Positions 11,216-36,953 of a DNA stretch of 36,953 nucleotides are shown here, piece after piece. The notes under the pieces were generated by a model that saw only the letters and a list, made by a program, of their open reading frames with translations, ran no database searches and was not told the origin of the DNA. The translations under genes and the position numbers were made by a program. Within the stretch, counting starts at the first letter, position 1; each line of letters begins with the position of its first letter. Source of the stretch: Halothermothrix sp. (lineage in GTDB: Bacteria; Bacillota; Halanaerobiia; DY22613); contig JAENYK010000024.1 of the NCBI GenBank assembly GCA_016841825.1, positions 1 to 36,953 of the forward strand. Direction: 5' to 3'.

Positions 11216-11251
11216 AAGTCTTGTGTTAAGAATGTGTGACGATAATTCTGT

Positions 11252-11327: not shown

Positions 11328-11331
11328 TTAC

Positions 11332-11408: not shown

Positions 11409-11422
11409 TTTATGATAATTTT

Positions 11423-11461
11423 GCGATATTTGTCCTGGCAGATATCGTATTTTTATATTTT
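11423..11461 (+). terminator. Intrinsic terminator of the tRNA operon
   Basis: GCGATAT (11423-11429) pairs with ATATCGT (11442-11448), followed by a T-rich tail to 11461. Confidence 0.7.
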
Positions 11462-11463
11462 CT

Positions 11464-11602
11464 ACGGGGAGTCTCCCAATCTCAATAGACGGGAGGATAT
11501 AGATAACTAAATAGTGTTTACTTCGTGGATACAGATCTCCTTCTGAAGTCGTTAAACCCTATTAACAGTGCTGTTAATGTGACTTTAATACATTTCTTAA
11601 TA
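11464..11602 (+). ncRNA. Unidentified conserved intergenic structured element, copy B
   Basis: This is the second copy of the element at 6084-6228. The 22-nt and 14-nt identical blocks are at 11503-11524 and 11544-11557. The hairpin GTTTACTTC / GAAGT-CGTT-AAAC is unchanged. The 5' arm is GGGGAG (11466-11471) and its loop partner CTCCTT (11537-11542), replacing AGACGA/TCGTCT of copy A while keeping pairing, a compensatory change that argues for a real helix. Downstream, ATTAACAG and CTGTTAAT form an extra hairpin. The element ends where an intrinsic terminator begins, about 113 nt before the ATG of the metalloprotein gene. It may be a leader with attenuator or a free small RNA. Confidence 0.5.
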
Positions 11603-11640
11603 GATCATTCTGACCTGTAAAGGGAAGATGATCTTTTTTT
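11602..11640 (+). terminator. Intrinsic terminator directly after structured element B
   Basis: AGATCAT (11602-11608) pairs with ATGATCT (11628-11634), followed by seven T. It lies between element B and the next gene, so it either ends an element-B small RNA or serves as an attenuator in the leader. Confidence 0.75.
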
Positions 11641-11714
11641 GTAAAAAGGATTTTTCATGGTTTTAGACAACTAATATATAAAAGAAATTTAACAATTGCA
11701 AGGAGGATAAAAAG

Positions 11715-12173
11715 ATGTCAGTAGATATTAAGGTAATTGAGGAGCATATGAAAAAATGGCAGAATATTTTACGTTTACGGGACTGGGATATTATTATTAG
11801 ATTGATGGATGCTAATTGGCGGAAATCTGGTGATGTGAAGATTGACCTGGATGATAAGAAAGCGATTCTTTTGATAAACTCAGAACCGTATACACAAAAT
11901 CTTGAGGAACTGATCATCCACGAATTGTTACATATTAAACTATTTCGAATGGATCAAATGATTGAGGAGTTTATCAAAAGTATTTTTGGAGATGATCTGA
12001 CTGATCCCAAATGTGACTTTGCTTATACCCAATTTTTTACGCTTCTGGAGGGAACAGTTGAGGATTTGACAAAAGGTTTTTTGACAGTGGGTGGTGAAGA
12101 TAAAGATCTTTCTTTTGGAAGACTACAACCTCAAGTTAATGAAGAGTTACAGAAAAACAAGAAGAAGCAATAG
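11715..12173 (+). CDS. Small putative zinc metallopeptidase-like protein (HExxH)
   Basis: The 152-residue protein contains the zincin motif HELLH at residues 69-73 in the context LEELIIHELLHIKLFRMD, and an acidic patch downstream (LLEGTVEDL) that may provide the third zinc ligand. The N-terminal half reads as a short alpha/beta domain (LRLRDWDIIIRLMD, KAILLINSEPY). No signal peptide or membrane segment is present, so it is probably cytoplasmic. AAGGAGG lies 10 nt before ATG 11715. Many single-domain zincins of this size occur in Bacillota with unknown substrates, so proteolytic activity is inference. Structured element B and a terminator precede it, so its expression may be controlled by premature termination. 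Confidence 0.75.
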   Translation: MSVDIKVIEEHMKKWQNILRLRDWDIIIRLMDANWRKSGDVKIDLDDKKAILLINSEPYTQNLEELIIHELLHIKLFRMDQMIEEFIKSIFGDDLTDPKCDFAYTQFFTLLEGTVEDLTKGFLTVGGEDKDLSFGRLQPQVNEELQKNKKKQ

Positions 12174-19036: not shown

Positions 19037-19053
19037 ACTAAGGGGTGGTCAAA

Positions 19054-19512
19054 ATGAAGAAGATACTAATAAGTTGCTTGGTGATAATTTATCTGTTTAT
19101 ATTTGTATCATCGGAATGTATTAAAGCAGATAATGTTGATGATCAGGTGGAGTTGGTGATGAATACAGTTACCCAGTTTATTGAAGCTTTTGAAAATGAA
19201 GATGTTGATAGTATTAAAACAATTTTGTCCAGTGATTTTGTAATGTTAGACGAAGGTAATACATTAAATAAGGATGTGTATATTGGTTTGTTACAAGATG
19301 TTTTAGAGAGCGGTTTAGATTACCATTACTTAACTATCAGTGATCTAGCTGTAGAACAAATTAGCGATGGAGAATATAAAATATTGGGGGAATTAGAGAT
19401 TTCAATGACAGATGAACCTGTTACTATAGTTTCATCGTTATTTAAAGTTAAAAAAATAAACGATATTTATTATATATCAGAATTTAGTACTTATAATGCA
19501 GTAGCCAAGTAA
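19054..19512 (+). CDS. Small secreted NTF2-like (SnoaL/DUF4440-type) protein
   Basis: The 152 residues begin with a signal peptide (MKKILISCLVIIYLFIFVSS, likely cleaved after CIKA). The mature part follows the NTF2/SnoaL pattern: a first helix VTQFIEAFENEDVDSIKTIL, then SDFVMLDEGNTLNKDVYIGLL, and paired strands ending SSLFKVKKINDIYYISEF. Such domains bind small ligands or act as enzymes or partners; none of these roles is visible here. The Cys in SSEC does not fit a good lipobox. I start at ATG 19054, with AGGGGTGG at 19041-19048; the in-frame GTG 19045 lies within that ribosome binding site. It is the first of three consecutive secreted-protein genes. Confidence 0.75.
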   Translation: MKKILISCLVIIYLFIFVSSECIKADNVDDQVELVMNTVTQFIEAFENEDVDSIKTILSSDFVMLDEGNTLNKDVYIGLLQDVLESGLDYHYLTISDLAVEQISDGEYKILGELEISMTDEPVTIVSSLFKVKKINDIYYISEFSTYNAVAK

Positions 19513-19522
19513 TTGTGTGAAC

Positions 19523-19614
19523 TCGTTCAGCTAAAACTGAACTTTGGGACTTCAGATGGGGATTCAACTCGCCTGAGGTAGAACAAGGTAGCTCTCACTT
19601 ATAGGAGTGGGAGT
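19523..19614 (+). mobile_element. Three-hairpin element, possible orphan IS200/IS605-type end or structured RNA
   Basis: Three consecutive hairpins are visible: GTTCAG/CTGAAC (19525-19542), CTTCAG/CTGAGG (19550-19578) and CTCTCACT/AGTGGGAG (19592-19613). The last, followed by TCATAG, and the GGGGATTCAAC...CCTGAGGTAGAACAAGG run resemble right ends of IS200/IS605 elements, which carry the omega-RNA scaffold of TnpB. No tnpA or tnpB is nearby, so this would be a solo end. Alternatively it is a leader RNA of the giant gene that starts 37 nt later. The resemblance is from memory, not from a search. Confidence 0.35.
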
Positions 19615-19650
19615 CATAGAAATTAGATATATCTTGAAAGGAGAGTCGGA

Positions 19651-22600
19651 ATGTTTACCTTAAAACTAAAAAAATTTTTGCAGCTTATCTGCTGCTTCCT
19701 ACTGGTTTTTTGCATAATGATGATTCATAGTAAGGTTGTTTATGCGTTTAATTTTATTGGAGTCGAGGATGAGTCAATAAATTATCACTATAATAAAAAT
19801 GAGAATTGGGTTCACTTTAAGACGATAAACTTAGATCAGGAGAAATTGAAAGATGTCACAACCTTAAAATGTGAGATAAAGGCGAGTATCAAAAACCATT
19901 GGGTTTTGGTTGGTGGTTGGGGAAATTGGTATTTGAATGTTAAATTACATTTAAACGGAGTATATTTAGGGAAAGTATCCTGCTGGACAGATACTGTTGA
20001 TGGTTATAAGAACTACACTAAAGAGTTCACTGTACGACTGGACAATCTGAACTTAGTGAACTGTTCTAATCCGACGATCACAATGTACTATCAGACAGAT
20101 ATTAGGGGATTAGGCCCAGTAGACGGGGGATATATCCAACGTTTAAGAGTTTATGCCGATGACATCAATGCTCCTGAGATTAAAGATTTTTACATTCATG
20201 ATGGTAAAGCGACCAATAGCAGGAACGTTAACTTACATATATCAGCCAAAGATGTGCTGAGCGGGTTGTATCAGATCTGTTTTAGTAATAACGGTAGTAG
20301 CTATACTGCCTGGGAATCCTATAAAACTACAAAAACCTGGACTTTGACCAGTGGTGATGGGCAGAAGAAGGTTTATCTGAAACTAAAGGATAAGGTTGGC
20401 AATATATCGCAGGGCTATCTTTCAGATCCAGTTGTTCTTGATACCACTCCACCGGTCAAAAAATCTATTACAATTGGAGAAAAACGGATAGAGAGTGTGG
20501 CTGTAAACTGGAATTTTACCGATGCTTTAATCGGTATGTCAACCAATCATCCCTACGAATATGCACTAACGACAGGCAATGTAACACCCTCATCGGGAAG
20601 TTATAGTACACTAAAAACAACAATATTTAATCAGTTAACCAGTAAACAGGGTTACTATGCCTGGGTAAGGGCTTATGACAAATTAGATAATCGAAGTTCC
20701 TGGTATCGTTCAGCACAATTCTCTCCACTATCTGAATCAATTTCTTCATTTACAGCACTGCCTGTAGCGGAGATAGATCAGCTAACTGGTCAACCAGTTT
20801 ATCAAGTGAGGTTGACGATACCTGAAGTCGATTGCGCTTCCTATATTATTGAAAGAGATTCAGCAGAACTGACCGAATTAAATAGTAGTGGTTCTTATAC
20901 TGATAACCGGGACCTTCAGAAACACGGAATTTATCAGTATTCGGTTTATACTGAAAATGTGATTGGTGATAAGTCTACAAAAACGTCACAGAATGTTATC
21001 ATTCCGAATATTTCTCCTGAACTGGATAACGGGGATGTCAGTGTTTCAAATTCAGACCTGACAGACATAGATCTAGAACAGGTTTTTTATACAAATAATA
21101 GAACTTTTCATCTCAATCTGCCAACTGTTGATCCTGAAGATGATGAGCTCAAATACCAGCTGATCTACAAAAAAGATAATGGGAATTTGAAAACATATTT
21201 CACAGAGTTGCAGAGTAGTGGATCTTCGGTGAATTTTGCACAGGATGGAGTATATCAATGGTATTTACAGTTTGCAGAATTTGATGGTGGGACAGAGATA
21301 ACGACCACTGATCCCAACGACTCTGATAAACCTTTAAGAACCAGAGTGCCGGCGGATAGTCTGTATGAGTTTGTTTTAGATACCATTGCACCTGCTGCTT
21401 CAGCTAATACTTTCAGGTTAACTAATGACACCCAGAGTATCACCTATAGCCAATCCAGACCAACCAATAATCGGGAGGTGAGGATTGCTAATATTCAGCT
21501 ATTTGATAATATTGGTGTTGAAGAGGTATATTTTTGGAATGATACTGCCAGCATGCCAGACAAGTTCTACACCGTGAGTCAAGCGGTAGAGAATAATTTT
21601 TTGAAATCAGCCGTCAAGAATGAATTGGCCAGTACTGCTGCCGGGATAAGATTGTCTTCTGAAGAGATAACCCAGATAACTGATCTTCCCTGGATTTTAA
21701 AAAGCGGTGCAGATGGTAGCCGAACTGTAAAGATGAAAGTTGTCGATAAAGCTGGTAATGTAACGATTAAAACTATGGCTGTTAAGTTGGATACTACACC
21801 ACCATTGCCTCCGATATTACAGGATTTTGATCATGTTCACAGCCAGGATAATGATCGAAGGAGAATCAATATAATCTGGGATAATCGTATCACAGATGTA
21901 GCTGGTTTTATGGGTAATTACTCAATAGCCGGTCATATTCAACAGATAAATCAGAGTGAGATATTACTAACCACAGATAATGGCCTTGTCACTGGGGGCA
22001 GTTACTCTATTGAGGTAACTGATTCGGGATATAACCAACCTGTAAAAGTAGCAATCTATGCTATCGACAGAGCAGGGAATATTTCCATGACAGCTACGCA
22101 ATATACAGCCTTTACACCAGCCAAATTGGGTGAGGTTAGATATAACCAACAGGAGAGTGGCTATAATGAAATCGTATATGGCGGTCATTTCATGAAATTC
22201 ACCTTAATTGATCCCGGTAAGGCAAACAAACATGTTTTAGAGTATGGAGCTTTAACGGGAGGAGAATTTACTCCCCAGGGTGAGCTGGCAATTGTTGACT
22301 CTAATCTTTTTTTCCATCAGGCTCTTAACCCTCATCAGGAAAAATATTATCGACTGGTAGCATTTAATGACTCCGGTGATAGGACTATAGGTGAGTATTT
22401 TGTAGCAAAAGTACCCAATATTCCACCGATGGCACCGATTATCTCTGATGTGAGCTATCCACAGAATTTTAATGTAGTCTATAATGAAGATTCAGAGGTA
22501 ATTTTTAATTATCAACCTGGATTAGATGTGGATGGAGATGACATTGCTCATACCATCAATTGGGCACCTGGAAGTACTCCCGGGGAAGACGAGTTTAATA

Positions 22601-25600
22601 AGATTAGGATTGGAGATCCGACCAGCATTCCTTTAAGCAAAGATGATCTGATCCATGGAAGTTCATATACCTGGTATGTAGAGGTTCAGGAAATAGAAGA
22701 AACATATCAATTGCACAGTGAGAGTCAAAGGATAACTTTCATTGTAGATAAGCATGCACCACTAATTAAAGGAGATAATATCGATCAATTATACACTAAT
22801 AAAGAGAGCTTAAAGGTGATAGCGACCGATCTGACTGAAACAGGTAATCCGGGTGAAATCTATAGCAATATCAACAGAGTATTCTATCAGAAGAACAATC
22901 AATCCTCTGAGTACGAAGTGGAGCTCACTCCAAATTCTGATGGGACATGGGGAGGTTTTATCACTCTGGAAGCAGGGGAGTACTCACTTCAAGTTTTTGC
23001 CCAGGATAACGCTGGTAATATTTCAACAGAGTTTCTCAATTATCAGCTCAAGGTTGATCATACTTCACCAGAGATAGTAGAGGCAAATATTGACTTAGAA
23101 CTTGAATCAGGAAGCTACAATACATATCGATCTAACATTCCTTTAGAGATAACTATTACAGATCCTGTTGTCCACAATATAGCCTCTGGGAGTAGGAGAC
23201 TGACCTATTGGTTTGTGGAAAATCCGGGAGATGAAGCAAATATAGCAGGTCAGACGATAAATTTAATTGATAACTCTTCAACATCTAATTTAGTTCTGGA
23301 TATGTCCGGGGTAGTTGATAATCGGGAATACTATCTGGTATTACAGGTAGAAGATCGGGCTGGTAATAAATCGGAGAAAAAATATCTGGGCCAGATCTAT
23401 ATTGATACAACGGCCCCGGAAGTAAATCTAGATCTGACAGGTCATAAAACATATGGAAGTAAGAATTATTTGGCTGATCTGAACTCACTAATATGTGATT
23501 CTTTCGCTCTAGACACTGAAAGTGGGATCAAGATTGAGGAATACAATATCTACTCAGTAAAGAAAGAAGACTTCGTAAATGACCAGTGGGCTGATTGGGA
23601 CACTGTTCAACAGACTGCTTTAATAGATGGAGATAGTTACAGTATTGCCTTTAGAGGAACCAATGGGGTTGGAAATAGTACAACTGTAATCAGTGAAGAG
23701 TTGGTTTATGACAGTTCTGAGCCTGTCGATCTGGATCTGGGTATATCAGCAGATATAGTAGTGTCAAATGAGACCATAATTATCACTGCCCAGGCTCATG
23801 ATGAGCATTCACCAATTACTTCACTAATGCTGGCAATAGGGTCAACACCTGGTGGAAACGAATTAACCTCGGCAATTTATGGAAATGAAGCAGGCTGGCT
23901 GCAGATGAAATTAGTAAATGGGGAGTATCGTTTAACCATTCCAGATATAGCGGACGGTATATACTACTCAACGTTGGCAGTTACAAATGCAGCAGGGAGT
24001 ACTTCCATTCTTGATGGTCAGACGATTGAAGTAGATAATCATCAGGAAAAATTGATAGTAAATGATGAAGGTCCTTATACGGCTTTTAATGATAAGCTAA
24101 CTGCCAGTTGGCAATACGTTGGAGGAAAAGAGATTGTCGAATATCAATACAGGGTTAAAATTAAAGATGGCAGTTATATTACTGAGATGAGATCCACCGA
24201 TCAAACCCAGATAAGATTGGAGAATCTGAATCTGACTCATGGTGAAACGTATCAATTTGAGGTAACCGCTGTATCCGATGATGGTGCACTCTTATCAGAC
24301 CTTAGTCCAGGGATAGCGGTGGATACTTCTGGGCCTGTCATTGACTTCTTTAATGTGCCGGAATATAGCAGTTCAGGGAAAATTAGATTTGATTGGCAGG
24401 GCACTGATACTGAGTCTGGTGTGATCAAAGTCGAAGTAGCCCTGGGAAGTGATTATAAACTTACCGATATAACCGATGGCTGGATAGAGCTTGTTGACAG
24501 TCATCTGAATAGTCAAGAGTTAAATCTAATTACTGGTCAGCGCTATTATACCATGTTTAGAATAACCAATGGTGCGGGTACTCAGACAGATAGAACCGGT
24601 TCACCTGTAATAATTGATGACACTCCACCACCAGTACCTGAGATTGAAGATCGGGCAGTTTATATTAATTATGATCAACCCTTTACTATTGATATGACCA
24701 ATACGATTCTACTGAATAGAATCGATGCCGAAAGTGGTAATCAAGAATATTATTGGACATACTCGCATGATCAAGATAGTTTAGTTTTGGACAATCAGAC
24801 TTTGAACTGGTCAGAATTAGAAAGTCTGAAAATAAGGTTTAGCAATATACTCGATTTAGTCGATAGCAGTCAAATAATCGATGGGACAACCTATTATTTT
24901 GCGGTTAAAACTATTAATGGGGCTGGACTAGCCAGTATTGGTGTTAGTGATGGAATTACTATTGATAACTCTGCACCCTCAATTCCGGAATTGAAGGTGC
25001 TTCATACCACAAATTTAAATCAGGATGAGGAAGTAAATTATATTACCAATACTAATAATCTAAAACTGTGGATTGATTCAACAGATGTACATTCGAATGT
25101 AGATAAATATCTATATGCATATGGCCTCTGGGGAGAGGTATCTGGAATCCCACGCCAGGAACTGCCAATCACTGACCCGGAGGAATACAATCAACCACAG
25201 GTGATTTCGTTAACCGATCTGCAACTTACGGAAGGTCAGATTTATTACTTCGCTGGTGAAAGTTGTAATGGTGCGACGATAATCTCCCAGACCGGATATA
25301 GTAGTGGTTTGATTTTAGATGCTTCAGTACCTGAGATTATTAATGTCAATGGTACAGCATCGGGCGATAAACTAATTTTTGACTGGGATGTTAATCTGAG
25401 CACAACAATATCTGCGATAACCAGGTATGAAATAGGTTTGGTCACAGATCCAGCCATAGAACCTGCGGAATGGATAGATATGGGATTGGCAAAGACCAGT
25501 ACTATAGATGCCACTTCCTTAGCGGATGGAGAATACTATCTAAAAATTCGGGCATATAATGCAGCCGGAAATTATTCGAAACCCAATAATGGAATGGGGA

Positions 25601-27405
25601 TCAGTCCTCTGGTTATATTGGATCGCACAAAACCTGAAGTAACAGAGATTGAGCATGCTAATTATACTCATCAAGAAATAGAAGCAATTATTAAAGCAGA
25701 AGATAACTTGTCTGGTATCAGTTGTTATCAGTATGCTGTGGGTACTTTATTCGATTCCACAATCTATAGCAAAGGTTGGATTGAAGTCACTAATATTACG
25801 GATCATGCAGAACTAAAAGATCAGATCCAGGCTATTTTGAAGACTGATCAAATACCTCATGCAGAAGAAGTTTATCTACGGGCCAGGGTAAAAGATAATG
25901 TAGATATCTGGTCAGATACTCTCCTGGGAGGAAAAATAATTGTTGATCATCAACCACCTGTGGAAGTAAGGATTACTGGCCCGCAGTGTACAAACACTAC
26001 CTCAAAAATTGGAGGAGTAAATATTGAATATTATGATCCCGAAAGTGGAGTTTCCCATTATCGAATGAGTGTAGCCAGTGAAATCGGTGGGAGTTGGTTG
26101 ACTGATCCAGCGATACAACCTATTGGTTCATTTGATCATCAGGTTACCGGTCTCGAACTTTCTGAGCAAGATTACTATCTGGTTCTGGAAGTATTTGATC
26201 GAGTTGGTTTAAGTACTGTGGTATACAGTGAAAATCCAGTGACAATCGATATTACACCACCGATCATCGAGTTTGTAGATCCTGCTGATCAAATTGTCTT
26301 TAATCATCCGGGTCTGGTTGAGTATACTTTGAGTGAACAGGCAAATGTATTCTTTACCTTGACAAATCCCGATGGCAGCAGTACGACTCAGCAGTATTAT
26401 CAGCTTGAGCCTGGTAGAATACATAGCTTTTCATTCCAGGAAGAAGGCTATGGAGTCTATAGATTGTCTGCTGAAGTGATAGATCTGGCCGGAAATAGTA
26501 TGCAGAATGTTATAGAAAAACAAATCAGAGTAAACGAACCTCCGATACTGACTTTTGCTGAAGACGAACAGGGAATAGCTTTCTATACCACACCGGGTAA
26601 ACCAATACAACTGATACCTTATCAGGTATATGATCCTGATGGAGGAACAATTGACAGTTATGAGTGGGATTTCGGTGATAGTTCACTCATTTCAGATGAA
26701 GCTGTACCAGAACACATCTATGAGCAATTAGGAATGTATACAGTTAAAGTAAAAATCTGGGATAATAATGCTGGAGAGACTATTGTAACGACAAAAGTAC
26801 AAGTAGAAAATACTCACCAGGGAAGCCTATATCGGGATGAGACCTGGAGCGGTGAACAGACGATTACTGGAGATATTATTGTTCCTGAAGGCAGAGTACT
26901 GACTATTCAGCCGGGGACACAGGTGTTAATTGACACAACCCCGGAAGGTAGCGGTTACAATCATCAGATATTAATTCAGGGTGAGTTGGTAGCTGGAATA
27001 ACTGATGGTAGCTCAAATGAGGTAGTAAGTATTAGCATGGTGGAAGCTGGTACTGGAAATTGGCAGGGAATTCATGTAGAAGGAACAGCTAATTTAACTA
27101 ATGTAGTAATTGAAGATGCCTTAAGAGCAATAACTGTCGTAAATCAGGCGGAACTCAAATTAATTGATTCAACTGTCTCAGATAATGTAATCGGCGTGCA
27201 TGTTTATGGGACAAGACCAACAATCGAGAGGACATTATTTAAAAATAACAGCCGCTATGGGATTAAGGAAGACCAGGGTGGCAGACCAATTGTCATAAAT
27301 TGTATCTTTGATGATAACTGGATAGATTATTATCATCAAAAACTATCCCGGATAACTATGGATGAATTAAATAATCTGGAAGGTAATTCAGGTAATCGGC
27401 AATAG
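19651..27405 (+). CDS. Giant secreted protein: Ig-like modules, PKD domain and C-terminal beta-helix (2584 residues)
   Basis: A signal peptide (residues 1-32, two Lys-rich starts then a long hydrophobic core ending VVYA) directs export. A beta-rich N-terminal domain (about 33-175) is followed by some fifteen Ig-like modules of about 90-150 residues, separated by linkers such as LDTTPP, VDTSGP, IDDTPP, VDHQPP and IDITPP, the typical OmpL47/bacterial Ig pattern. A PKD domain lies near 2300-2395 (YDPDGGTIDSYEWDFGDSS), then a right-handed beta-helix at about 2403-2584 (IIVPEGRVLTIQPGTQVLID). No LPXTG, S-layer or membrane anchor is seen, so it is secreted or held non-covalently. AAAGGAGAG precedes ATG 19651. 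It is followed after 82 nt by the RHS gene, so the two are probably co-expressed. Adhesion or scaffold roles are inference. Confidence 0.85.
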   Translation: MFTLKLKKFLQLICCFLLVFCIMMIHSKVVYAFNFIGVEDESINYHYNKNENWVHFKTINLDQEKLKDVTTLKCEIKASIKNHWVLVGGWGNWYLNVKLHLNGVYLGKVSCWTDTVDGYKNYTKEFTVRLDNLNLVNCSNPTITMYYQTDIRGLGPVDGGYIQRLRVYADDINAPEIKDFYIHDGKATNSRNVNLHISAKDVLSGLYQICFSNNGSSYTAWESYKTTKTWTLTSGDGQKKVYLKLKDKVGNISQGYLSDPVVLDTTPPVKKSITIGEKRIESVAVNWNFTDALIGMSTNHPYEYALTTGNVTPSSGSYSTLKTTIFNQLTSKQGYYAWVRAYDKLDNRSSWYRSAQFSPLSESISSFTALPVAEIDQLTGQPVYQVRLTIPEVDCASYIIERDSAELTELNSSGSYTDNRDLQKHGIYQYSVYTENVIGDKSTKTSQNVIIPNISPELDNGDVSVSNSDLTDIDLEQVFYTNNRTFHLNLPTVDPEDDELKYQLIYKKDNGNLKTYFTELQSSGSSVNFAQDGVYQWYLQFAEFDGGTEITTTDPNDSDKPLRTRVPADSLYEFVLDTIAPAASANTFRLTNDTQSITYSQSRPTNNREVRIANIQLFDNIGVEEVYFWNDTASMPDKFYTVSQAVENNFLKSAVKNELASTAAGIRLSSEEITQITDLPWILKSGADGSRTVKMKVVDKAGNVTIKTMAVKLDTTPPLPPILQDFDHVHSQDNDRRRINIIWDNRITDVAGFMGNYSIAGHIQQINQSEILLTTDNGLVTGGSYSIEVTDSGYNQPVKVAIYAIDRAGNISMTATQYTAFTPAKLGEVRYNQQESGYNEIVYGGHFMKFTLIDPGKANKHVLEYGALTGGEFTPQGELAIVDSNLFFHQALNPHQEKYYRLVAFNDSGDRTIGEYFVAKVPNIPPMAPIISDVSYPQNFNVVYNEDSEVIFNYQPGLDVDGDDIAHTINWAPGSTPGEDEFNKIRIGDPTSIPLSKDDLIHGSSYTWYVEVQEIEETYQLHSESQRITFIVDKHAPLIKGDNIDQLYTNKESLKVIATDLTETGNPGEIYSNINRVFYQKNNQSSEYEVELTPNSDGTWGGFITLEAGEYSLQVFAQDNAGNISTEFLNYQLKVDHTSPEIVEANIDLELESGSYNTYRSNIPLEITITDPVVHNIASGSRRLTYWFVENPGDEANIAGQTINLIDNSSTSNLVLDMSGVVDNREYYLVLQVEDRAGNKSEKKYLGQIYIDTTAPEVNLDLTGHKTYGSKNYLADLNSLICDSFALDTESGIKIEEYNIYSVKKEDFVNDQWADWDTVQQTALIDGDSYSIAFRGTNGVGNSTTVISEELVYDSSEPVDLDLGISADIVVSNETIIITAQAHDEHSPITSLMLAIGSTPGGNELTSAIYGNEAGWLQMKLVNGEYRLTIPDIADGIYYSTLAVTNAAGSTSILDGQTIEVDNHQEKLIVNDEGPYTAFNDKLTASWQYVGGKEIVEYQYRVKIKDGSYITEMRSTDQTQIRLENLNLTHGETYQFEVTAVSDDGALLSDLSPGIAVDTSGPVIDFFNVPEYSSSGKIRFDWQGTDTESGVIKVEVALGSDYKLTDITDGWIELVDSHLNSQELNLITGQRYYTMFRITNGAGTQTDRTGSPVIIDDTPPPVPEIEDRAVYINYDQPFTIDMTNTILLNRIDAESGNQEYYWTYSHDQDSLVLDNQTLNWSELESLKIRFSNILDLVDSSQIIDGTTYYFAVKTINGAGLASIGVSDGITIDNSAPSIPELKVLHTTNLNQDEEVNYITNTNNLKLWIDSTDVHSNVDKYLYAYGLWGEVSGIPRQELPITDPEEYNQPQVISLTDLQLTEGQIYYFAGESCNGATIISQTGYSSGLILDASVPEIINVNGTASGDKLIFDWDVNLSTTISAITRYEIGLVTDPAIEPAEWIDMGLAKTSTIDATSLADGEYYLKIRAYNAAGNYSKPNNGMGISPLVILDRTKPEVTEIEHANYTHQEIEAIIKAEDNLSGISCYQYAVGTLFDSTIYSKGWIEVTNITDHAELKDQIQAILKTDQIPHAEEVYLRARVKDNVDIWSDTLLGGKIIVDHQPPVEVRITGPQCTNTTSKIGGVNIEYYDPESGVSHYRMSVASEIGGSWLTDPAIQPIGSFDHQVTGLELSEQDYYLVLEVFDRVGLSTVVYSENPVTIDITPPIIEFVDPADQIVFNHPGLVEYTLSEQANVFFTLTNPDGSSTTQQYYQLEPGRIHSFSFQEEGYGVYRLSAEVIDLAGNSMQNVIEKQIRVNEPPILTFAEDEQGIAFYTTPGKPIQLIPYQVYDPDGGTIDSYEWDFGDSSLISDEAVPEHIYEQLGMYTVKVKIWDNNAGETIVTTKVQVENTHQGSLYRDETWSGEQTITGDIIVPEGRVLTIQPGTQVLIDTTPEGSGYNHQILIQGELVAGITDGSSNEVVSISMVEAGTGNWQGIHVEGTANLTNVVIEDALRAITVVNQAELKLIDSTVSDNVIGVHVYGTRPTIERTLFKNNSRYGIKEDQGGRPIVINCIFDDNWIDYYHQKLSRITMDELNNLEGNSGNRQ

Positions 27406-27487
27406 TAGAGCTGATATCAGTAGTTGTCCTGAAATGCTATAGTCATTTAAGAGAAAAAGAATAGGATAACCAGAAAGGAGAAAGAAA

Positions 27488-30400
27488 ATGCTAAAAAAAT
27501 GCGGAATCTTTTTAGCAGTAATTGTTTTGTTTTTGGGGCTGATCCCCGCTGCGGCTGAAGGAAATAAAACGAATATAACCTCACAGTCAGAGTTGGCGGT
27601 AGAAATATCAAATAATATTCTACAGGCCACTCCAGGTTCTGATGGGGCTGCAATAGAATTGGAAAATAAGTCTGCACGACTGGTAATCGGGAGTATTCGC
27701 AACCGGGGAGGTGATGACTGGATCACTCCCTCCTGGATTCCCGGTGGATATCAGGGAATTAATCAAAAACAGAAGGAGCAGATCGAATTTGAAATTAACT
27801 GGGATTCCTTCACGAAAGGTGAAACCAGAACTGCTGTCTTTGATCTGGAGTTAAAGATGTTAGATGATCAAGGCTCTGAGTGGACAGAGACGGTTACTAT
27901 AACCGCTACTAATACTATTCAATCCAGCAAACCTAATAAGCGATATACAATGGGAGTTGAAAAAACAGGTGATAGTTCGGCAACAATCTGGTTTAAACCA
28001 CAGGGATTTAATTCTCGATTTGCTATTGTCTATTATCAAGTAAATTCTCAGTTACGGCGGAATCATTTTCTCAAATATCAGACTGGAACCCAAAGGTGGG
28101 AATACCAGGTCAGAGATTTGCAAGAAGGAGATATAATTAATTATTATGTCGGATATGAGAAGTCATGGTTATACTATACGACAGAATGGAGTCAGTATGT
28201 TTATTCCACCGGGCCAGTATTGGCTCCAGTATTAACGGGTGCCATAGCTGGTGAGAATGAAGTTAATTTAAGCTGGGATAGTGTAAGTGGAGCTGATGGA
28301 TATCAGATATTCTATGGTACAGTCAGTGGAAGTTATAGTGATATTATACATGTGGGTGAGGAAACAAATTATCTGGTAACTGATCTTCTAAATCATACTA
28401 CCTATTATTTTGCAGTCAAAGCTATAAAGGGTAGTAAAGAGAGTGAATTATCAAATGAAATAAATGCTACACCAATACCTGCCAAATTATCAGCTATCTC
28501 TGGACCGAATACAGATATATTACATCCAGTGGGATATCTGATTGATGGGGATTTAACAACCAGTTGGGGTTTTAAACCTGGTTCAGAACAGGGGTGGGCT
28601 GAGTTAGATTTAGGAAAAGATACCCTCATCTATGGATTGCAGGTCTCAGGAACCCTTTATCCAGAGACTACCATCTATCTTGAATATGAAAAAGACGGAT
28701 TCTGGTTACCATTTTTGGCACCTCAAATAAAGGAACTGGGAATGAATCAAATAATCGACCTATCTTACGATAATCTTGTCAGTAGTAAGTTGCGAATAAG
28801 ATTAAACGGAAGTGGAGTTCAATATAGCAGTATTGCAGAAATTAGCATAATTGGAGAAAAGGCGAGCAGCTTATATCAGAAGATTAAACCTGAGAAAATT
28901 ATCGCATCTGAAAACACAGCACCAACCGCACCAGCCAAATCGTTGATTGATGGAAATACTTATACCGTGTGGCAGACGCAACCTTCTTTCTGGGCAAGAT
29001 TCCAATTGCCAGGACTGGATGAAATATTTGACGCCATAGATGATTCATCGACACTAAACTTGATAGAAGGCAAAAATAGGGATCAAGAAATAAATACTGA
29101 AGACCAGGTTATCTTTGAATTTGCCAACAGTTATCAGCTAGAAAATATTAATATCTTTTTGACGGAAAAAACCAGAGGCGACTTTAGTCTTGATATAGAG
29201 GATAATGGCACCTGGCAGCAGATAGAATACATACCAGATGACACTCAAAGAGGATGGCATAGACTGGATTTGAGTGACCGCCAGGTTACTACCAATAAAG
29301 TGCGTTTACGTGTATCGGGAACTGATGGTGGACTGGGTGGGATTAGTGAAGTCCAATTCTTTGGGAATGGTGAATTTACAGGAGATGAATACAAGACGAT
29401 TGGAATTCCAGATACTGTAGAATTAGACCAACCATATAATGGCTATTTCCAGTTATCACCCGAAGAGTTAAAAGATCAGTACCTGGAACTGGTGGTTACA
29501 GAGAATACTACTGATAATTTGCAGGTAGAATTAAATGGAAAACAAGTAATTCTCGAACCCACCTTCATTCTCAGAGGACATACTGTTTATAGACATTTGA
29601 TTGAAGATCTGGATTTTAGAGAAGGGCGTAATTTTCTGAAGATCAGTTCCAATACAGAATTGACATTGGTGAATGCAAGATTTAATCCAGAAATTAGGGA
29701 TTGGGCACACAATTATCCGAACTTAACTGATGGACTATTACTTACACCGGTTACAGCGGAAAATAGTATAGAATTAAACCTCAGTCAAGAGACACTGATA
29801 GAGGAGATAGCAATCTATTCAGAAAATGATAATCCTTCTTTTGGAGTATCTGTGCTGGTAGATGGCAGTTGGCTATCCTTAAATTCTAGAGAAAGTGGTA
29901 TTAAAAGCATCAAATATACTGCTAGTCTAACTGCTGAAAAGATCAGGATTGAAAATCCAGGATATCTTAATATATCTGAAGTGAAGATAAGTGGAAGTGC
30001 CATAACAGACCATGCTCCTCAAGTAAAGATTTTATCTCCCGGCGATGGTGAGGTTATCAATTTCTTTGAGGTGGGTACAAAATATATTTATGGTTTTATT
30101 GATAACCAGGAAGCTCAGGTCTATGTTAATGGTGAGAAAGCTTATCAGAATGGAAATTACTTCTGGATTAGATTGATCAAAGCGGGTATGAGGCCATGGA
30201 AAACCATGGAAATAAATGCGAGAGTTACTGATCACCAGGGTAGAGAGAGTTCTGATACTGTTGAAACGATGTTGGGCGAACTTCCACTATTCCGCATCGA
30301 TCAATCTGATACTATAATTTATACAGCAGATGATATTTTTACCGTTAGTGGTCAATTACTGGCCCCATTATGTAAAATTACTGTAAATGGTCAAGAGATA

Positions 30401-33400
30401 TCAACATCAAGGTGGGGTGCATTTAGTACAGAGGTTGGCTTAGAAGAAGGATTTAACCTGATCAAAATAAAATGTATCCGGACAGTAGGACAGGATCGGG
30501 AATTTACTCAAACAAGCTACCGCATGGTCTATCTGCGCAAAGACCAGGCTGAATTGACTATCAATTCACCTTTACCAGGTTCATATATTAAAAGAGACAG
30601 TGTAATCGTGAGTGGTACAGTCAAGGGATTAGGAGATATATCTGTACTTGTTAATGGAAAACCTGCTGAGGTAGATGGCATGTACTACGTCTCTCCAATT
30701 ATCTCCATAACTGAAGAGAATAGTACAGTTACAGTTCAGGTTACTGATAATAATGGAACTGTCAGTGAATCAATTACTCTTTATCGTGACCTGATTCCAC
30801 CGATAATCTCTCAGGTATTACCTGAAGAATCTGATCTGACGAAGAACAGTATTGTGGCAGTAAGTGGTCAGGTAGAAGAAAGTGGGGAGTATTGTGTTTA
30901 TATAAATGGAGTAGCGGCAAATATTACTGATGATCATACCTTCAGTCAGCAGATAAGCTTATCTGATGGTAAACAGATGGCAATTAACATCGAAGCTGTA
31001 GATCTGGCTGGTAATATTGGGTATTATACAAGAAGGATTATGGTAGATACTACATCACCTGAGAATTTTAACCCTGTCGCTAATCCAATAAACTGGACAA
31101 ATAACACGCAGCCAGAGATTACTTTTAATACTAGTGACGCTGTAAGTGGGATTAACCGTTACCAATTAGCCATAGATGGGGGAGTATATCAGGAAGTTAT
31201 AAGTCCGTATCAATTACCGATGCTGGAAGATGGGATACATGAAATATCTGTCAAAGCTATAGATAATGCTGGTTGGGAGACGATTGCAGTAACCAGAGTA
31301 TATATTGATACAACTGCTCCCAATCCATTTACTCCGGTGGCAAATCCGGCAGATTGGACGAGTACTCCACCTGCAATAAGTTTTAGTGCAGCTGATAATG
31401 GATCAGGGATTGATCATTATGAATTAAGTATAGATGATGGAGAATATCTCACTGTAGAAAGTCCATATAGTTTGCCTGAATTGGCAGATGGTAGTCATTT
31501 GATTAAGGTTAAAGCTATTGACAACTTAGGCTATCAAACTATTGGTACTGGTGAAGTATATATTGACACCACCACTCCAGTAATCACCTTAACAGGAGAG
31601 TATGACGGTCTATATACAAGTGATGATAATTACCAGATCACTGGGAAAATTGCAGATCTAACTGATGTGTCTTTGACTGTTCAGGGACGTAAGGTAACTG
31701 TTAATGAAGATACTACTTTCAATACTGCTTTAAATCTTCAGGAAGGTGCCAACACCATTATCGTGAAGGCTATAGATCAGGCTGGATTGACAAGTAGTCT
31801 GCAGTTTATGATCTATCTTGATACGACAGCTCCCAATGAGTTTGTTCCAATAGCGACTCCAGATGAATGGACTAATAATGTCCAGCCAGTAATTACGTTT
31901 GAAACCACCGATGATCTGTCAGGTATAGATTATTATGAACTAAAGGTAGATGCCGGAGAGTTCGTTCGGGTAGAAAGCCCATATCAATTGCCCGAACAGG
32001 AAGATGGTGTGCATGTGGTCAGTGTAAGAGCGGTAGACGAAATGGGATTTGGAACTGTCTGCACGACCAAGATTTATATCGACACCACAGCACCAGAAAT
32101 CCCCGGAAATTTACGGGTTATTCCGGGTAATGGTAAAATGATAGTCAAATGGGATGTTATCTCACAGGATGTCATTGAATATCGAATAGCGAAAAAGAAT
32201 CAAGATGAACCAGAATACTTTACAGTAACCGGGAATGAATTCACTGATACTGATTTAGCTAATGGCGATCAATATACGTATCAGGTCTTAGCTATTGACC
32301 GGGCGTCCAATGAAGGTCAATCAACTGAATGGCAAGAAGGAACGGTGGGTTTGACTGAGGTTCCATATGAACCTGACGAGGGTGCGATTCTGGAATATGA
32401 GGATGTCACTCTAACAATGGCTCAGGAAGGTTTGCTGGACGATGTAGAAAAGGTAACTATTTCTGAAGTAAAAAGTGAGGAAATGGAAGATAAGGCAATC
32501 TTCCCGATGGTAGGTCCGATGTATGAGTTTTCTGTTTATAAAGAGGGTAGTGATACTCCAGAAGAGAACATGGTTGCTGAGAAAGGATATATTGGCTGCA
32601 TCAGTTATGATGAAAGTCAAATACCGGAGGGTTTTCCTGAGCAAAATCTGGGAGTATATCATTTTGATACGATGTTTGGTAAATGGTTTTTAGTTCCATC
32701 AGCAGGTGTCGATATAGAGAATAATAAGATATATTTCATTACCAATCATTTTAGTTCTTTCTCAGTACAGGCAACCGTTTTACAGGATTTAACACCCCAG
32801 GAATACAAAGATGCTGGCTATTCCCCATTGAAAACCTATTCTACACACGAAGGGATAACAATTTCTCCACAGTTTGGTACAGCCAGTACTGAGGTAACAG
32901 AATTAGTCTTGCCAGGAAGAAATGGATTTGATCTTGTTTTGTCCAGAAGATATGACACTGCAACAGCCAGAAGTGATGCTTTTGCTCTGGCGATTAACGG
33001 TACATTAGGATTTAATTTAGTTAGTGGGGGCGATAATGTTTCTACTGTCAAAGACCTTGCCGAGGTTACAGGTTTAGTAGAGGAATACACCAAAAATATC
33101 AATTGGGCTAATCAGGCTGCTGCTAATGTGATTCAAATGATTGAAGAATACATCTTTAACCAGGGGGATTTTGCCTATTCTATGGGACAGGGTTGGCGTT
33201 TGAACATTCCCTATGTTAAGGCTGCCAATAGTTCCTTAATTCTGCGGACAGAAAGTGGCAGCATGTATTATATCAACGAGATGAGCCTTGTGGATGTACT
33301 TGGCTATGTGCCTAAGCAGTATCGAAAATTAAAATTTGAGCAGCATGAAGGCGCAGATTTTACTCTCTATATCGAACAGGTCTATTCACCACTTGATGTC

Positions 33401-36400
33401 ACCCAATATCTGGGGGATAATTCAATCAAGAGTCGTTGGTATAGTCTGGGCTACAAATTGGTCATGAAAGATGGAACTACATATGAGATGGATGCATTAG
33501 GTCGGACTACTAAAAAGATTGATCCGACAGGTTTAAATGCCATTGAGTTCAAGTATAGTGGTTTATTTCTCGACTATATTATCGATACAATGGGAAGAAA
33601 GATTCGCTTTGGCTATGAGAGTGATATATTATGGCCTAAAATTAACAAGATCTGGGTAGAAAATGATTCATATAATCGTCAGATTAATTATGATATCGGG
33701 GTAGATGATCTGTTACAGCATGCAACTGATGCTCAGGGGAGAGTTAGCAGCTATGAATATGACTTGCGCTTAATGTTTGGCGGTCAAGCAGGTTTTAAAG
33801 TTAACATATTGAATATTATCTGCAAAGTTGTTGGCGGTCCTTTTGCTGGATTAGCAGGTTCGGTCTTTGGAGCAGCTGATGTAGAATTATTTGGACAGTT
33901 TAAGGTTCAGGTTGTGCAGCCTATGATAATGATGACTGCACCCGGACAGGGAATGACGAAGATTGAGTACGAACAGCCTACTTTGATGTATGGGTCGTGT
34001 AGTATCAACTGGTTTTTAGCTGTACCTGAATCGGTGACCTTCAGTGTTAATCTGGAACAGTATCTTTTGGCTAAAAAAGTTGAGGTATTTTTAAATTCCA
34101 GCCAAAAGGTCAGGACGACGACTTATGATTATACTTTTGAATACTATGATTGGTACCAGCCAGTCAACTATTGTACTGTAGAGAACAATGGACAGCGAGA
34201 AACAATTTACAACTATCTACCGATTCCCAAAAAACGTTATCGTTGGGAGGATAGATCAATTGATGTAGTTGATATTCCGATGCAGTTCTGGACATATCAT
34301 CTTTTGAGCGTGATTGATAATATTGAGATGACAGATGCACAGAATGGCAGTCTGCTAGAGAGGCGTGAATATAAGTATAATACCGACAGCATGAGACCTA
34401 CCGAGATCGTCACTCTGCGGGGCGATAATTATCGTAAAGTAAACTATGATTACGACAATTGGGGAAACGTTGAATATCTCAAAGACTATAGTAAGAGTAA
34501 TGGTCAAGAGCAGCAGAGCGAGACCTGGTCATATTATTTGAATGCTGATTCAGCACCAGATTCTGCACTACCATGGAAACAGTCTCCTTTTGCCCAGAGC
34601 GAGATTGACAGTCATATTCATGATCGTCTGGGTGGAAAATTAATTAAAAACTATATACCTGATGAACAGGGTAATTTTACTGCTAGTTATCTTCACAATT
34701 TCAATAACTATAATTTAGCTGGACAGTTGATCGAAACTGCTACCTGGGCCAATAATAATTGGTCAATCTCCAGATTCGAATACTATTCAACAGATGGTAG
34801 TCTAAAAAGGAAGATAAATCCCATCGGGCATGAGACTATCTATGAATATGATAACTATGGTTTACCGAAAAAGGTGATTGAAAAGGACATTGTTGACCCT
34901 CAGGGATACACCCGGGATATAATAATTCAATATGGCTTTGATTATATCTCTGGCTGGAAGATTTGGGAGAAGAACCCACGGGGCTATGTGAATGAATTTG
35001 AGTATGATGCCCTTGGGCGGACTATTAAGATAGTCAATCCTGATGACGATGACGACGTCAACTGGATGCCGGACGGTTATACACCTGCTTTCAGGGAGAA
35101 CAATCCAACTTCAGTGATTGAATACGATGATAGCAGTCTATATTCGGTTGTGACCAATTCCCTGGGACAGAGAACCATGTATGATTTTGATGACCTTGGG
35201 CAGATGGTCAAAGAGGTGAAATATAGACAAGAAAATGGTACATACGTGGAAGCAGCAGTTACAACTCTGAAATATGATGGTTGGGGTAACATTGTCGCGA
35301 TCACGGATCCCAATGGGATCAGTACTGGCCCTGCCTGGCGATATACTACCAGATATGAGTATGATGCTCTGGGTAGAAATAAGTCCATCATCTATCCTGA
35401 TGAGACCGAAAGTTTGACCGATAATCCAGAGAGAAGGATGGAGTTTGACTATGATGAGAATATCCTGACTATCACTGATGAGCGAGGCAAGATCACTGAA
35501 CAGTATTTGGATATGCAGGAGAGGGTAATCAAACAGATCAATTATAATCAATCTGATTATTTACTGGAAGAGATAGTCTCTCAGGTCTATTATGATGGTC
35601 TGGGGAATGAAGTCATCACAATCGATCCCAATGGGAGTAAGACAGTCAAAGAATACAATGAATTGAACTTACTGGCCAGAGTAACTTTTCCAACGGAAGA
35701 TTTTTTTGACAAGGGAAGACAGATTACAACTGCTCCTTATCAGTGGTCTGAATATAACTCAGCCGGTCAAAAGATCAAGGATGTAATTAGTATTCCCGGT
35801 GGTGGAGAACATGAGACATTCTATGAGGTAGATGGATTGGGGCAGATATATAGGACAACCACTAGCTACACAGATCGAAGTGGTCTCTGGAAAGAGGCGA
35901 TAACAGAGGTCTATTATGATGCCAATGGCAATCAGATAAAACTGGTAGATGCCAACAATACTCCATTGCCTGATGCTGAACAGAAGGCTTATACATATAC
36001 CTATTCAGCCCTTGATAAACCATTAACCGAGACTGATCTCGCTGGTAATACTACCTCCTATACCTATGATCAGATTGGGAATCGGACGTCAATGACCGAT
36101 CCACGGGGTAATAGTGGTAAATATGAAGGTGACTTTACCATTATCTATCACTATGATGATCTGAATAGGTTAATCAAAGGTGAACTGCCGCGGACAAAAG
36201 ATGATCCAGAAAAACCACTGGTAGAGTTAAGTTATGATCCCCGGGGTAATCTGGTAGAGAGAATTGAACCAGATGGAGCTGCAGCCAGTTATACATATTA
36301 TCCCAATAACCTGGTGAAAACAGAGACAGTCAGCGGGGACGGTAAGAATTATACCTACACCTATAGATATGATAAGGCAGGTAATCAAGTAGAGATTATT

Positions 36401-36953
36401 GATCCTTCTGATAAGGTTACCAGAAAAGAGTACGATGATCTGAATCGGTTGATTAAGATCAGCTATCCGGAGGGGAATGAGGAACGCTTTGAATATGACA
36501 TCAACGGGAACCGTAAGGGTTATGAAGATGGAGAATACAACTATACCCGGTACAACTATGATAAGTACAATCGTTTAACAGAAGTAGTGGATGCCAGGAA
36601 TGGTGTTACCAGTTATAGTTATGACCAGCTGGGTAACCTGACTCTGAAGGTCAATGCTCTGGGCCAGAGGACAGTCTATGACTATGATCAGTTGAATCGA
36701 CTGATTTTAGAAAGAGACTCACTGGGTTATGAGACCAGGTATGGTTATGATGCAGTAGGTAACAGAATCTACAAAAAAGATCCCAAACAGACAGAAAGCA
36801 CTTACGAATACTATCCAAATTATCTGGTCAAAAAGGTAACTATGACCAATGGTGAAGATGCAAAAGTGCTGGAATATACCTATGATGAGGCCGGTTACCA
36901 GATAACAGCCAATGATGATGGGGTTACCACCAGTTATAATGTGTATAACGGTG
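27488..36953 (+). CDS. Giant secreted RHS/YD-repeat protein with Ig, FN3 and discoidin-like modules (3' end outside window)
   Basis: The frame stays open from ATG 27488 (AGAAAGGAG upstream) to the window edge: at least 3155 residues, no stop codon seen. A signal peptide (MLKKCGIFLAVIVLFLGLIP, to AAA) begins it. Modules in order: FN3-like about 243-327 (LSWDSVSGADGYQIFYG); F5/8-type discoidin-like segments about 353-459, 483-629 and 746-839; Ig-like domains with short Y/V-VNG strands to about 1186; three 86-87-residue repeats at 1187-1359 and 1445-1531; a second FN3 about 1538-1620; a beta domain ending ITNHFSSFSV near 1755; an RHS-type N-terminal domain with LPGRNGFDLVLSRRYD near 1800; and YD repeats (YEYDALGRTIKIVNP, YDELN-type units) from about 2000 onward. 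WapA-like surface RHS proteins are the best comparison. A C-terminal toxin tip is possible but not visible. Confidence 0.85.
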   Translation, partial: MLKKCGIFLAVIVLFLGLIPAAAEGNKTNITSQSELAVEISNNILQATPGSDGAAIELENKSARLVIGSIRNRGGDDWITPSWIPGGYQGINQKQKEQIEFEINWDSFTKGETRTAVFDLELKMLDDQGSEWTETVTITATNTIQSSKPNKRYTMGVEKTGDSSATIWFKPQGFNSRFAIVYYQVNSQLRRNHFLKYQTGTQRWEYQVRDLQEGDIINYYVGYEKSWLYYTTEWSQYVYSTGPVLAPVLTGAIAGENEVNLSWDSVSGADGYQIFYGTVSGSYSDIIHVGEETNYLVTDLLNHTTYYFAVKAIKGSKESELSNEINATPIPAKLSAISGPNTDILHPVGYLIDGDLTTSWGFKPGSEQGWAELDLGKDTLIYGLQVSGTLYPETTIYLEYEKDGFWLPFLAPQIKELGMNQIIDLSYDNLVSSKLRIRLNGSGVQYSSIAEISIIGEKASSLYQKIKPEKIIASENTAPTAPAKSLIDGNTYTVWQTQPSFWARFQLPGLDEIFDAIDDSSTLNLIEGKNRDQEINTEDQVIFEFANSYQLENINIFLTEKTRGDFSLDIEDNGTWQQIEYIPDDTQRGWHRLDLSDRQVTTNKVRLRVSGTDGGLGGISEVQFFGNGEFTGDEYKTIGIPDTVELDQPYNGYFQLSPEELKDQYLELVVTENTTDNLQVELNGKQVILEPTFILRGHTVYRHLIEDLDFREGRNFLKISSNTELTLVNARFNPEIRDWAHNYPNLTDGLLLTPVTAENSIELNLSQETLIEEIAIYSENDNPSFGVSVLVDGSWLSLNSRESGIKSIKYTASLTAEKIRIENPGYLNISEVKISGSAITDHAPQVKILSPGDGEVINFFEVGTKYIYGFIDNQEAQVYVNGEKAYQNGNYFWIRLIKAGMRPWKTMEINARVTDHQGRESSDTVETMLGELPLFRIDQSDTIIYTADDIFTVSGQLLAPLCKITVNGQEISTSRWGAFSTEVGLEEGFNLIKIKCIRTVGQDREFTQTSYRMVYLRKDQAELTINSPLPGSYIKRDSVIVSGTVKGLGDISVLVNGKPAEVDGMYYVSPIISITEENSTVTVQVTDNNGTVSESITLYRDLIPPIISQVLPEESDLTKNSIVAVSGQVEESGEYCVYINGVAANITDDHTFSQQISLSDGKQMAINIEAVDLAGNIGYYTRRIMVDTTSPENFNPVANPINWTNNTQPEITFNTSDAVSGINRYQLAIDGGVYQEVISPYQLPMLEDGIHEISVKAIDNAGWETIAVTRVYIDTTAPNPFTPVANPADWTSTPPAISFSAADNGSGIDHYELSIDDGEYLTVESPYSLPELADGSHLIKVKAIDNLGYQTIGTGEVYIDTTTPVITLTGEYDGLYTSDDNYQITGKIADLTDVSLTVQGRKVTVNEDTTFNTALNLQEGANTIIVKAIDQAGLTSSLQFMIYLDTTAPNEFVPIATPDEWTNNVQPVITFETTDDLSGIDYYELKVDAGEFVRVESPYQLPEQEDGVHVVSVRAVDEMGFGTVCTTKIYIDTTAPEIPGNLRVIPGNGKMIVKWDVISQDVIEYRIAKKNQDEPEYFTVTGNEFTDTDLANGDQYTYQVLAIDRASNEGQSTEWQEGTVGLTEVPYEPDEGAILEYEDVTLTMAQEGLLDDVEKVTISEVKSEEMEDKAIFPMVGPMYEFSVYKEGSDTPEENMVAEKGYIGCISYDESQIPEGFPEQNLGVYHFDTMFGKWFLVPSAGVDIENNKIYFITNHFSSFSVQATVLQDLTPQEYKDAGYSPLKTYSTHEGITISPQFGTASTEVTELVLPGRNGFDLVLSRRYDTATARSDAFALAINGTLGFNLVSGGDNVSTVKDLAEVTGLVEEYTKNINWANQAAANVIQMIEEYIFNQGDFAYSMGQGWRLNIPYVKAANSSLILRTESGSMYYINEMSLVDVLGYVPKQYRKLKFEQHEGADFTLYIEQVYSPLDVTQYLGDNSIKSRWYSLGYKLVMKDGTTYEMDALGRTTKKIDPTGLNAIEFKYSGLFLDYIIDTMGRKIRFGYESDILWPKINKIWVENDSYNRQINYDIGVDDLLQHATDAQGRVSSYEYDLRLMFGGQAGFKVNILNIICKVVGGPFAGLAGSVFGAADVELFGQFKVQVVQPMIMMTAPGQGMTKIEYEQPTLMYGSCSINWFLAVPESVTFSVNLEQYLLAKKVEVFLNSSQKVRTTTYDYTFEYYDWYQPVNYCTVENNGQRETIYNYLPIPKKRYRWEDRSIDVVDIPMQFWTYHLLSVIDNIEMTDAQNGSLLERREYKYNTDSMRPTEIVTLRGDNYRKVNYDYDNWGNVEYLKDYSKSNGQEQQSETWSYYLNADSAPDSALPWKQSPFAQSEIDSHIHDRLGGKLIKNYIPDEQGNFTASYLHNFNNYNLAGQLIETATWANNNWSISRFEYYSTDGSLKRKINPIGHETIYEYDNYGLPKKVIEKDIVDPQGYTRDIIIQYGFDYISGWKIWEKNPRGYVNEFEYDALGRTIKIVNPDDDDDVNWMPDGYTPAFRENNPTSVIEYDDSSLYSVVTNSLGQRTMYDFDDLGQMVKEVKYRQENGTYVEAAVTTLKYDGWGNIVAITDPNGISTGPAWRYTTRYEYDALGRNKSIIYPDETESLTDNPERRMEFDYDENILTITDERGKITEQYLDMQERVIKQINYNQSDYLLEEIVSQVYYDGLGNEVITIDPNGSKTVKEYNELNLLARVTFPTEDFFDKGRQITTAPYQWSEYNSAGQKIKDVISIPGGGEHETFYEVDGLGQIYRTTTSYTDRSGLWKEAITEVYYDANGNQIKLVDANNTPLPDAEQKAYTYTYSALDKPLTETDLAGNTTSYTYDQIGNRTSMTDPRGNSGKYEGDFTIIYHYDDLNRLIKGELPRTKDDPEKPLVELSYDPRGNLVERIEPDGAAASYTYYPNNLVKTETVSGDGKNYTYTYRYDKAGNQVEIIDPSDKVTRKEYDDLNRLIKISYPEGNEERFEYDINGNRKGYEDGEYNYTRYNYDKYNRLTEVVDARNGVTSYSYDQLGNLTLKVNALGQRTVYDYDQLNRLILERDSLGYETRYGYDAVGNRIYKKDPKQTESTYEYYPNYLVKKVTMTNGEDAKVLEYTYDEAGYQITANDDGVTTSYNVYNG
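31046..32080 (+). repeat. Three copies of an 86-87-residue Ig-like repeat inside the RHS gene
   Basis: Copies at 31046-31306, 31307-31564 and 31820-32080 each start DTT(S/A)P, continue P(V/I)A(N/T)P..WT....P.I.F...D..SGI..Y.L, then SPY.LP...DG.H...V.A(I/V)D, and end (I/V)YI. A different Ig-like module (31565-31819) separates copies 2 and 3. They mark internal module duplication. Confidence 0.8.

Follow-up and report, generated by a model that had tools for sequence, protein, structure and literature searches.

Gene content and layout of the locus

The DNA analyzed here (hereafter, the window; 36,953 nt) is the complete contig C23 of a Halothermothrix sp. genome (G000; 5.08 Mb in 43 contigs). 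Its left part carries mostly housekeeping genes (glpX, a PEP-utilising enzyme, an HD-domain hydrolase, dnaG, a sigma-70 factor, trmK, and nif3), and its right part is occupied by three plus-strand open reading frames (19045-19512, 19651-27405, and 27488-36952), all of them free of internal stops. A first-pass annotation of the window had described three export-signal proteins in succession, the last two of them giant, and each frame was indeed found to encode a single hydrophobic segment, located at the N-terminus. That reading of the giants stands, with the addition that the window is a whole contig, which breaks inside RHS repeats at an assembly junction. The features considered below are as follows:

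19045-19512, plus strand: small exported protein of 155 aa with a weak SnoaL/NTF2-like match
19651-27405, plus strand: Ig giant of 2,584 aa, with signal peptide, bacterial Ig-like array, PKD, right-handed beta-helix, and conserved C-terminal tail
26593-26802, plus strand: PKD domain, residues 2315-2384 (PKD_4, 8.4e-11)
26818-27330, plus strand: short right-handed beta-helix, approximately residues 2390-2560 (Beta_helix, 5.7e-6)
27331-27402, plus strand: conserved C-terminal tail, in the window YYHQKLSRITMDELNNLEGNSGNRQ (from alignments)
27474-27480, plus strand: Shine-Dalgarno-like AAAGGAG before the ATG of the RHS gene
27488-36953 (frame to 36952), plus strand: WapA-like RHS protein of at least 3,155 aa, its frame still open where the contig stops
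27953-28843, plus strand: modules CBM56, FN3, and F5/8 type C (discoidin), identified by Pfam in the N-terminal half of the RHS protein
32351-32776, plus strand: ZU5-fold domain, approximately residues 1622-1763, after the Ig modules and before the RHS shell (predicted structure)
32747-32755, plus strand: motif at which self-cleavage is predicted (His1754-Phe1755-Ser1756), at the ZU5 domain end (homolog alignment)
32903-36953, plus strand: RHS/YD shell, starting at LPGRNG (residue 1806; RHS_repeat, 6.7e-49, seven stretches)
36899-36953, plus strand: assembly junction of 55 nt, exactly common to contigs C23 and C6; on C6 the reading frame carries on into the RHS remainder

The Ig giant and the RHS gene are separated by 82 nt, and a search for a terminator-like site between them found none. 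Spacing, AAAGGAG motif, and missing terminator are together arranged as in an operon. The SnoaL-like gene lies directly upstream of the Ig giant in the window but is not adjacent to it in the other homologous loci read, and it probably falls outside the conserved pair; among the upstream neighbors of the homologous loci, no third conserved gene was seen.

Domain architecture of the two giants

Pfam recognized Big_13, FN3, PKD, and Beta_helix in the Ig giant, which is homologous to the other Ig giants described below over most of its length (25-42% identity). No hydrophobic segment was detected beyond its N-terminus, in agreement with the earlier view that it lacks an anchor, and the approximately fifteen Ig modules proposed for it are plausible, given 17 module-boundary-like motifs under a loose regular expression and seven under a stricter one. 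Its proposed ending in PKD and a beta-helix was borne out by Pfam and by structure prediction, performed on this region from eight homologs (mean pLDDT 87.5): the predicted PKD fold matched a collagenase PKD (Z 13.5, rmsd 1.4 over 86 residues), and the following segment was modeled as a ladder of beta-strands, with pLDDT mostly >90, that matched a GH87 beta-helix (Z 10.9). Two tyrosines of the C-terminal tail are invariant in the eight-sequence alignment, and the tail recurs in further loci.

The only hydrophobic segment of the RHS protein is signal-peptide-like and N-terminal, suggesting export by this route. Pfam identified CBM56, FN3, F5/8 type C (discoidin), Glucodextran_B/Big Ig modules, and RHS repeats, which agrees with the discoidin-like, FN3, and Ig modules followed by YD repeats that had been listed previously; the CBM56 domain and a ZU5-fold domain had been missed. 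The latter was not called by Pfam and emerged from a structural model that is reliable only over approximately its residues 10-150, where pLDDT is ~80. It matched the ZU5 domain of ankyrin (Z 12.4, rmsd 2.9 over 128 residues), clearly above unrelated entries, and, at lower scores than ankyrin ZU5, GAIN domains and the FIIND of NLRP1 and CARD8. The motif at the end of the domain is HFS in 12 of 13 aligned homologs and HFT in the other. PIDD self-cleaves at HF/S, and CARD8 and NLRP1 at SF/S (PMC3210808). Fold and motif together predict that the ZU5 domain of the RHS protein likewise cleaves itself. The resemblance to PIDD, CD97, NLRP1, and CARD8 comprises the predicted fold and an HF/S-type motif placed between two strands at the domain end; in contrast to those proteins, the ZU5 domain here belongs to an exported protein of a bacterium and is followed by an RHS shell, and its cleavage is predicted only. 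ZU5 autopeptidases have been known from RHS toxins since 2012 (PMC3482391), and this part of the protein is accordingly of a known kind. We also considered whether ZU5 might be unique to the RHS clade under study and rejected the idea, as the ZU5-like part alone matches many proteins of the phylum, mostly in frames of <2,000 aa.

Toxin tips and immunity genes in the same genome

The window's RHS gene runs to the contig end within repeats, and its terminal sequence is nearly identical to a stretch of contig C3 (1,222 nt at 98%), with more copies on C35, C9, and C6. On C3, C35, and C9, RHS core ends are fused to differing tips, or tips lie beside RHS fragments. These comprise PG_binding plus SLT tips (C3 and C35), two AHH nuclease tips (C3), a GIY-YIG tip (C35), and a LysM-bearing tip that has no recognized toxin domain (C9). 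Imm11 is the next gene after one AHH tip and Imm26 the next after the GIY-YIG tip, and the gene after the peptidoglycan-hydrolase tips encodes a protein of 267 aa that has a membrane segment at its N-terminus, a placement that immunity to a hydrolase acting in the periplasm would require. The first-pass annotation had suggested that a toxin tip and an immunity gene could follow beyond position 36953; such cassettes do exist in this genome, on the nearly identical RHS ends of other contigs, and they are not assigned to the window gene. With that scope, their domain content argues strongly for antibacterial tips with immunity genes in this genome.

The numerous adhesive modules of the RHS protein (CBM56, FN3, discoidin, and Ig) could also suggest that the pair, using RHS as teneurins do, serves chiefly in adhesion or contact rather than as a weapon. 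Toxin tips beside immunity genes are, however, the standard signature of antibacterial polymorphic toxins (PMC3482391), and RHS ends fused to peptidoglycan hydrolase or nuclease domains, with Imm11/Imm26-type neighbors, occur in this very genome; we therefore regard a mainly adhesive system as very unlikely.

Co-occurrence of the two giants across genomes

To survey the distribution of the pair, the C-terminal module of the Ig giant was used as a query among 60 relatives. Near-full-length matches were found at six loci in five other genomes and in a second copy in G000, each within an open frame of 2,601-2,898 aa. A profile-based search, covering 398 genomes of the phylum, brought in Ig-module loci from other families. 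At all 15 testable Ig-module loci, an RHS-type giant lies immediately downstream on the same strand, at a spacing of -4 to +512 nt where measured. Thirteen of these loci could be read into the RHS start or the YD repeats; the other two, C43 of G000 and one in G225, run off their contigs, so that only the discoidin/Ig N-terminal architecture of the RHS giant is readable, and in G225 just the last part of the Ig module is visible. A further locus (G360:C212), which ends at a contig edge, was left out of the 15. Conversely, of the 12 readable loci that share this ZU5-RHS-start region, 10 have an Ig giant upstream. The exceptions are G017:C9 and G249:C58, the latter partly masked; therefore, the Ig giant is not essential to every such toxin. 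As a negative control, other RHS loci were inspected, and an Ig giant was present at none of ten, three of them in Omp85-encoding genomes. Among the genomes sampled, the full C-terminal Ig module occurs only beside this RHS clade. A scan with the RHS side recovered four MAG loci. A scan for the Ig module with a single protein as the query returned no relative, and no plasmid record among those searched contained the module.

Because the same two genes recur in other genera and families, their arrangement is far beyond chance, and by this conservation they form a two-gene unit. The co-occurrence check proposed with the first-pass annotation is thereby answered positively; neither a lack of co-occurrence elsewhere nor an RHS frame that ends soon without a variable domain, the two outcomes named as speaking against it, was found. 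Linkage could in principle reflect common descent of one mobile block without selection for a functional unit, and repeats and a group II intron do occur in or beside RHS fragments. Such descent is highly improbable, as the linkage extends across several families at 25-50% identity with incongruent trees, and a neutral hitchhiker would be expected to have often been separated or to have decayed.

The pair is present twice in G000 and twice in G001. The second Ig giant of G000 (contig C43, L037:2-11214) is 2,727 aa in length and 31% identical to that of the window over residues 1100-2582; behind it begins a second RHS N-terminal half, which the contig end truncates. At the first G001 locus (L051:8893-19156), the RHS gene is split into two overlapping frames of 1,813 and 1,647 aa and looks frame-broken.

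Sequence co-variation between the partners

Across 13 loci, distances in the Ig module showed no correlation with those in the ZU5-RHS-start region (Mantel r 0.025, p 0.38), and the trees of the two conflict at well-supported nodes. By segment, co-variation between the Ig module and the N-terminal half of the RHS protein was weak (Spearman 0.33, p 0.0065 without correction, one of several comparisons), and between the Ig module and the ZU5-core there was none (Spearman -0.08); the ZU5-core and the shell do co-vary (0.46). These values support neither strict co-evolution of the two giants nor a tight, lock-and-key interface between them. The pattern of segment co-variation indicates that the locus is a mosaic that tends to break near the predicted cleavage domain. 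The earlier proposal is supported in part: the two genes are conserved neighbors, but the Ig giant is at most a putative physical scaffold for the RHS chain, its C-terminal module showing no co-variation with the ZU5/RHS-start region.

Ig/PKD giants are in general common adhesins. The Ig giant might accordingly be an independent adhesin or biofilm protein that is co-expressed with the RHS toxin and acts in parallel to it, a view also favored by the lack of strict co-variation and by the two clade RHS genes that have no Ig giant. We consider this possible but rather doubtful, since the full C-terminal module is confined to this RHS clade among the genomes sampled and since simple co-regulation explains less well why linkage persists while the sequences shuffle. 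Linkage kept despite shuffling argues for a functional link and against a narrow lock-and-key interface, and it is more easily reconciled with a generic partner than with two closely matched proteins.

Association with an outer membrane

Omp85 is a marker of the outer membrane. It is encoded in all 11 carrier genomes tested (G000 and 10 of 10 others), compared with 101 of 398 genomes of the phylum sample and 22 of its 81 RHS-bearing genomes. Outside the window's class, all five carriers, from four families, are Omp85-positive, vs. 18 of 77 RHS-bearing genomes (P = 4e-4 by genome and 2e-3 by family); shared ancestry of two-membrane lineages could produce part of this association. G249 and G380, which belong to the RHS clade, are also Omp85-positive. 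As the RHS clade itself follows the Omp85 pattern, the association concerns the system in its entirety and is not specific to the Ig giant. No Omp85 gene adjoins the pair (the Omp85 matches of G000 lie on C43 and C21), and neither an anchor nor an outer-membrane exporter was found in or beside it.

A proposed two-gene toxin locus with a surface partner

On balance, we favor the interpretation that the pair is a two-gene antibacterial polymorphic-toxin locus in which the Ig giant serves as a dedicated surface partner; we infer both the antibacterial use and the physical role of the Ig giant. Counting against this interpretation are the weak co-variation of the partners, the two clade members that have no Ig giant, the lack of any anchor or outer-membrane exporter in or beside the pair, and the breaking-off of the window's RHS gene ahead of its tip. 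The RHS protein would be the toxin chain, exported via its own signal peptide and equipped with adhesive N-terminal modules. Its ZU5 domain is predicted to cut itself between Phe1755 and Ser1756, ahead of the RHS shell and an exchangeable C-terminal toxin tip against which a neighboring immunity gene would protect. The Ig giant would be the secreted partner, most probably in the form of a long filament or adhesin at the surface, and may help to keep the toxin chain in place or display it on the outer membrane of these two-membrane Bacillota. More speculatively, and with considerable doubt, these bacteria might own a two-protein surface device for RHS toxin delivery, in which an exchangeable Ig giant and the RHS N-terminal half make up the surface-bound part and self-cleavage by ZU5 frees the shell and tip. 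If true, such a device would solve an outer-membrane problem that the WapA-type toxins of one-membrane relatives do not face.

How RHS toxins of >300 kDa leave cells that have no type VI system is an open question, and even for WapA of Streptococcus suis, the authors of its study have no explanation for how it crosses the cell wall (PMC12704120). The Ig giant gene, conserved next to a single RHS clade and with Omp85 in all tested carriers, offers a concrete candidate in this context. In addition, the C-terminal Ig module provides a genomic flag by which such toxin loci can be found in fragmented genomes.

Comparison with known systems

The RHS protein resembles the WapA-type RHS toxins of Gram-positive bacteria (Bacillus subtilis and S. 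suis) in its signal peptide and large exported RHS chain. WapA of S. suis is exported by Sec and undergoes autocleavage (PMC12704120). WapA-type toxins carry a variable C-terminal toxin with an adjacent immunity gene, and here cassettes of this sort occur in the same genome. However, WapA is held to a one-membrane cell wall by cell-wall-binding repeats such as LysM (PMC12704120), and Pfam detected no LysM or other cell-wall-binding repeat in the RHS N-terminal half; the present hosts encode Omp85, the N-terminal half consists of CBM, FN3, discoidin, and Ig modules plus ZU5, and an Ig giant lies upstream.

A ZU5 autopeptidase N-terminal of the RHS repeats is shared with the ZU5-containing RHS toxins, for which Zhang et al. 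(2012; PMC3482391) proposed that ZU5 releases the toxin at the cell surface. As described there, ZU5 is mostly joined to SpvB and a beta-propeller (TcdB/TcaC-like), neither of which had a Pfam match in the window protein up to the contig end. PKD is nowhere mentioned in that paper, and its passages on these toxins describe no partner giant. Two-partner secretion (CdiA/CdiB) differs as well: within the pair, Pfam matched neither a TPS signal domain nor an FhaC/CdiB-type transporter, and there is no adjacent Omp85 transporter. The RHS toxin alone is of a known kind; in the open-licence literature searched, we found no description of a dedicated Ig giant beside one RHS clade, and this partner would be the new element.

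The RHS ends on the other contigs of G000 recall the orphan Rhs tip/immunity arrays of Salmonella (PMC3967940) in their truncated RHS cores, alternative tips with immunity genes, and near-identical core stretches usable for recombination. They differ in belonging with a signal-peptide RHS protein in a two-membrane Bacillota that has an Ig giant upstream.

Additional observations on RHS ends

A weak discoidin-like domain occurs among RHS repeats (L008:5760-8255 and L010:13419-14381; F5_F8_type_C, 2.5e-4, below the curated cut-off). Another RHS end array is present on contig C24 of G000 (L038:380-16478), with Ntox47, HINT pretoxin, and PG_binding tips and small genes between them; it may or may not continue C43. 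Inside the RHS tip arrays of two genomes lies a KptA/Tpt1 RNA 2'-phosphotransferase gene (L038:5664-6269 and L054:10600-11154), and that it offers repair-type immunity to RNA-cutting tips is only a guess. The tip on C9 continues after its LysM stretch without a Pfam family (L009:666-1100) and is followed by a 185-aa gene without a convincing match, possibly an undescribed toxin/immunity pair. Near the end of C6, a group II intron with a reverse transcriptase frame is located directly upstream of an RHS fragment (L010:14297-16379). Finally, two 770-nt RHS core stretches on one contig (L008:6537-7306 and 11041-11810) are 99.7% identical and are likely a substrate for recombination between tip cassettes.
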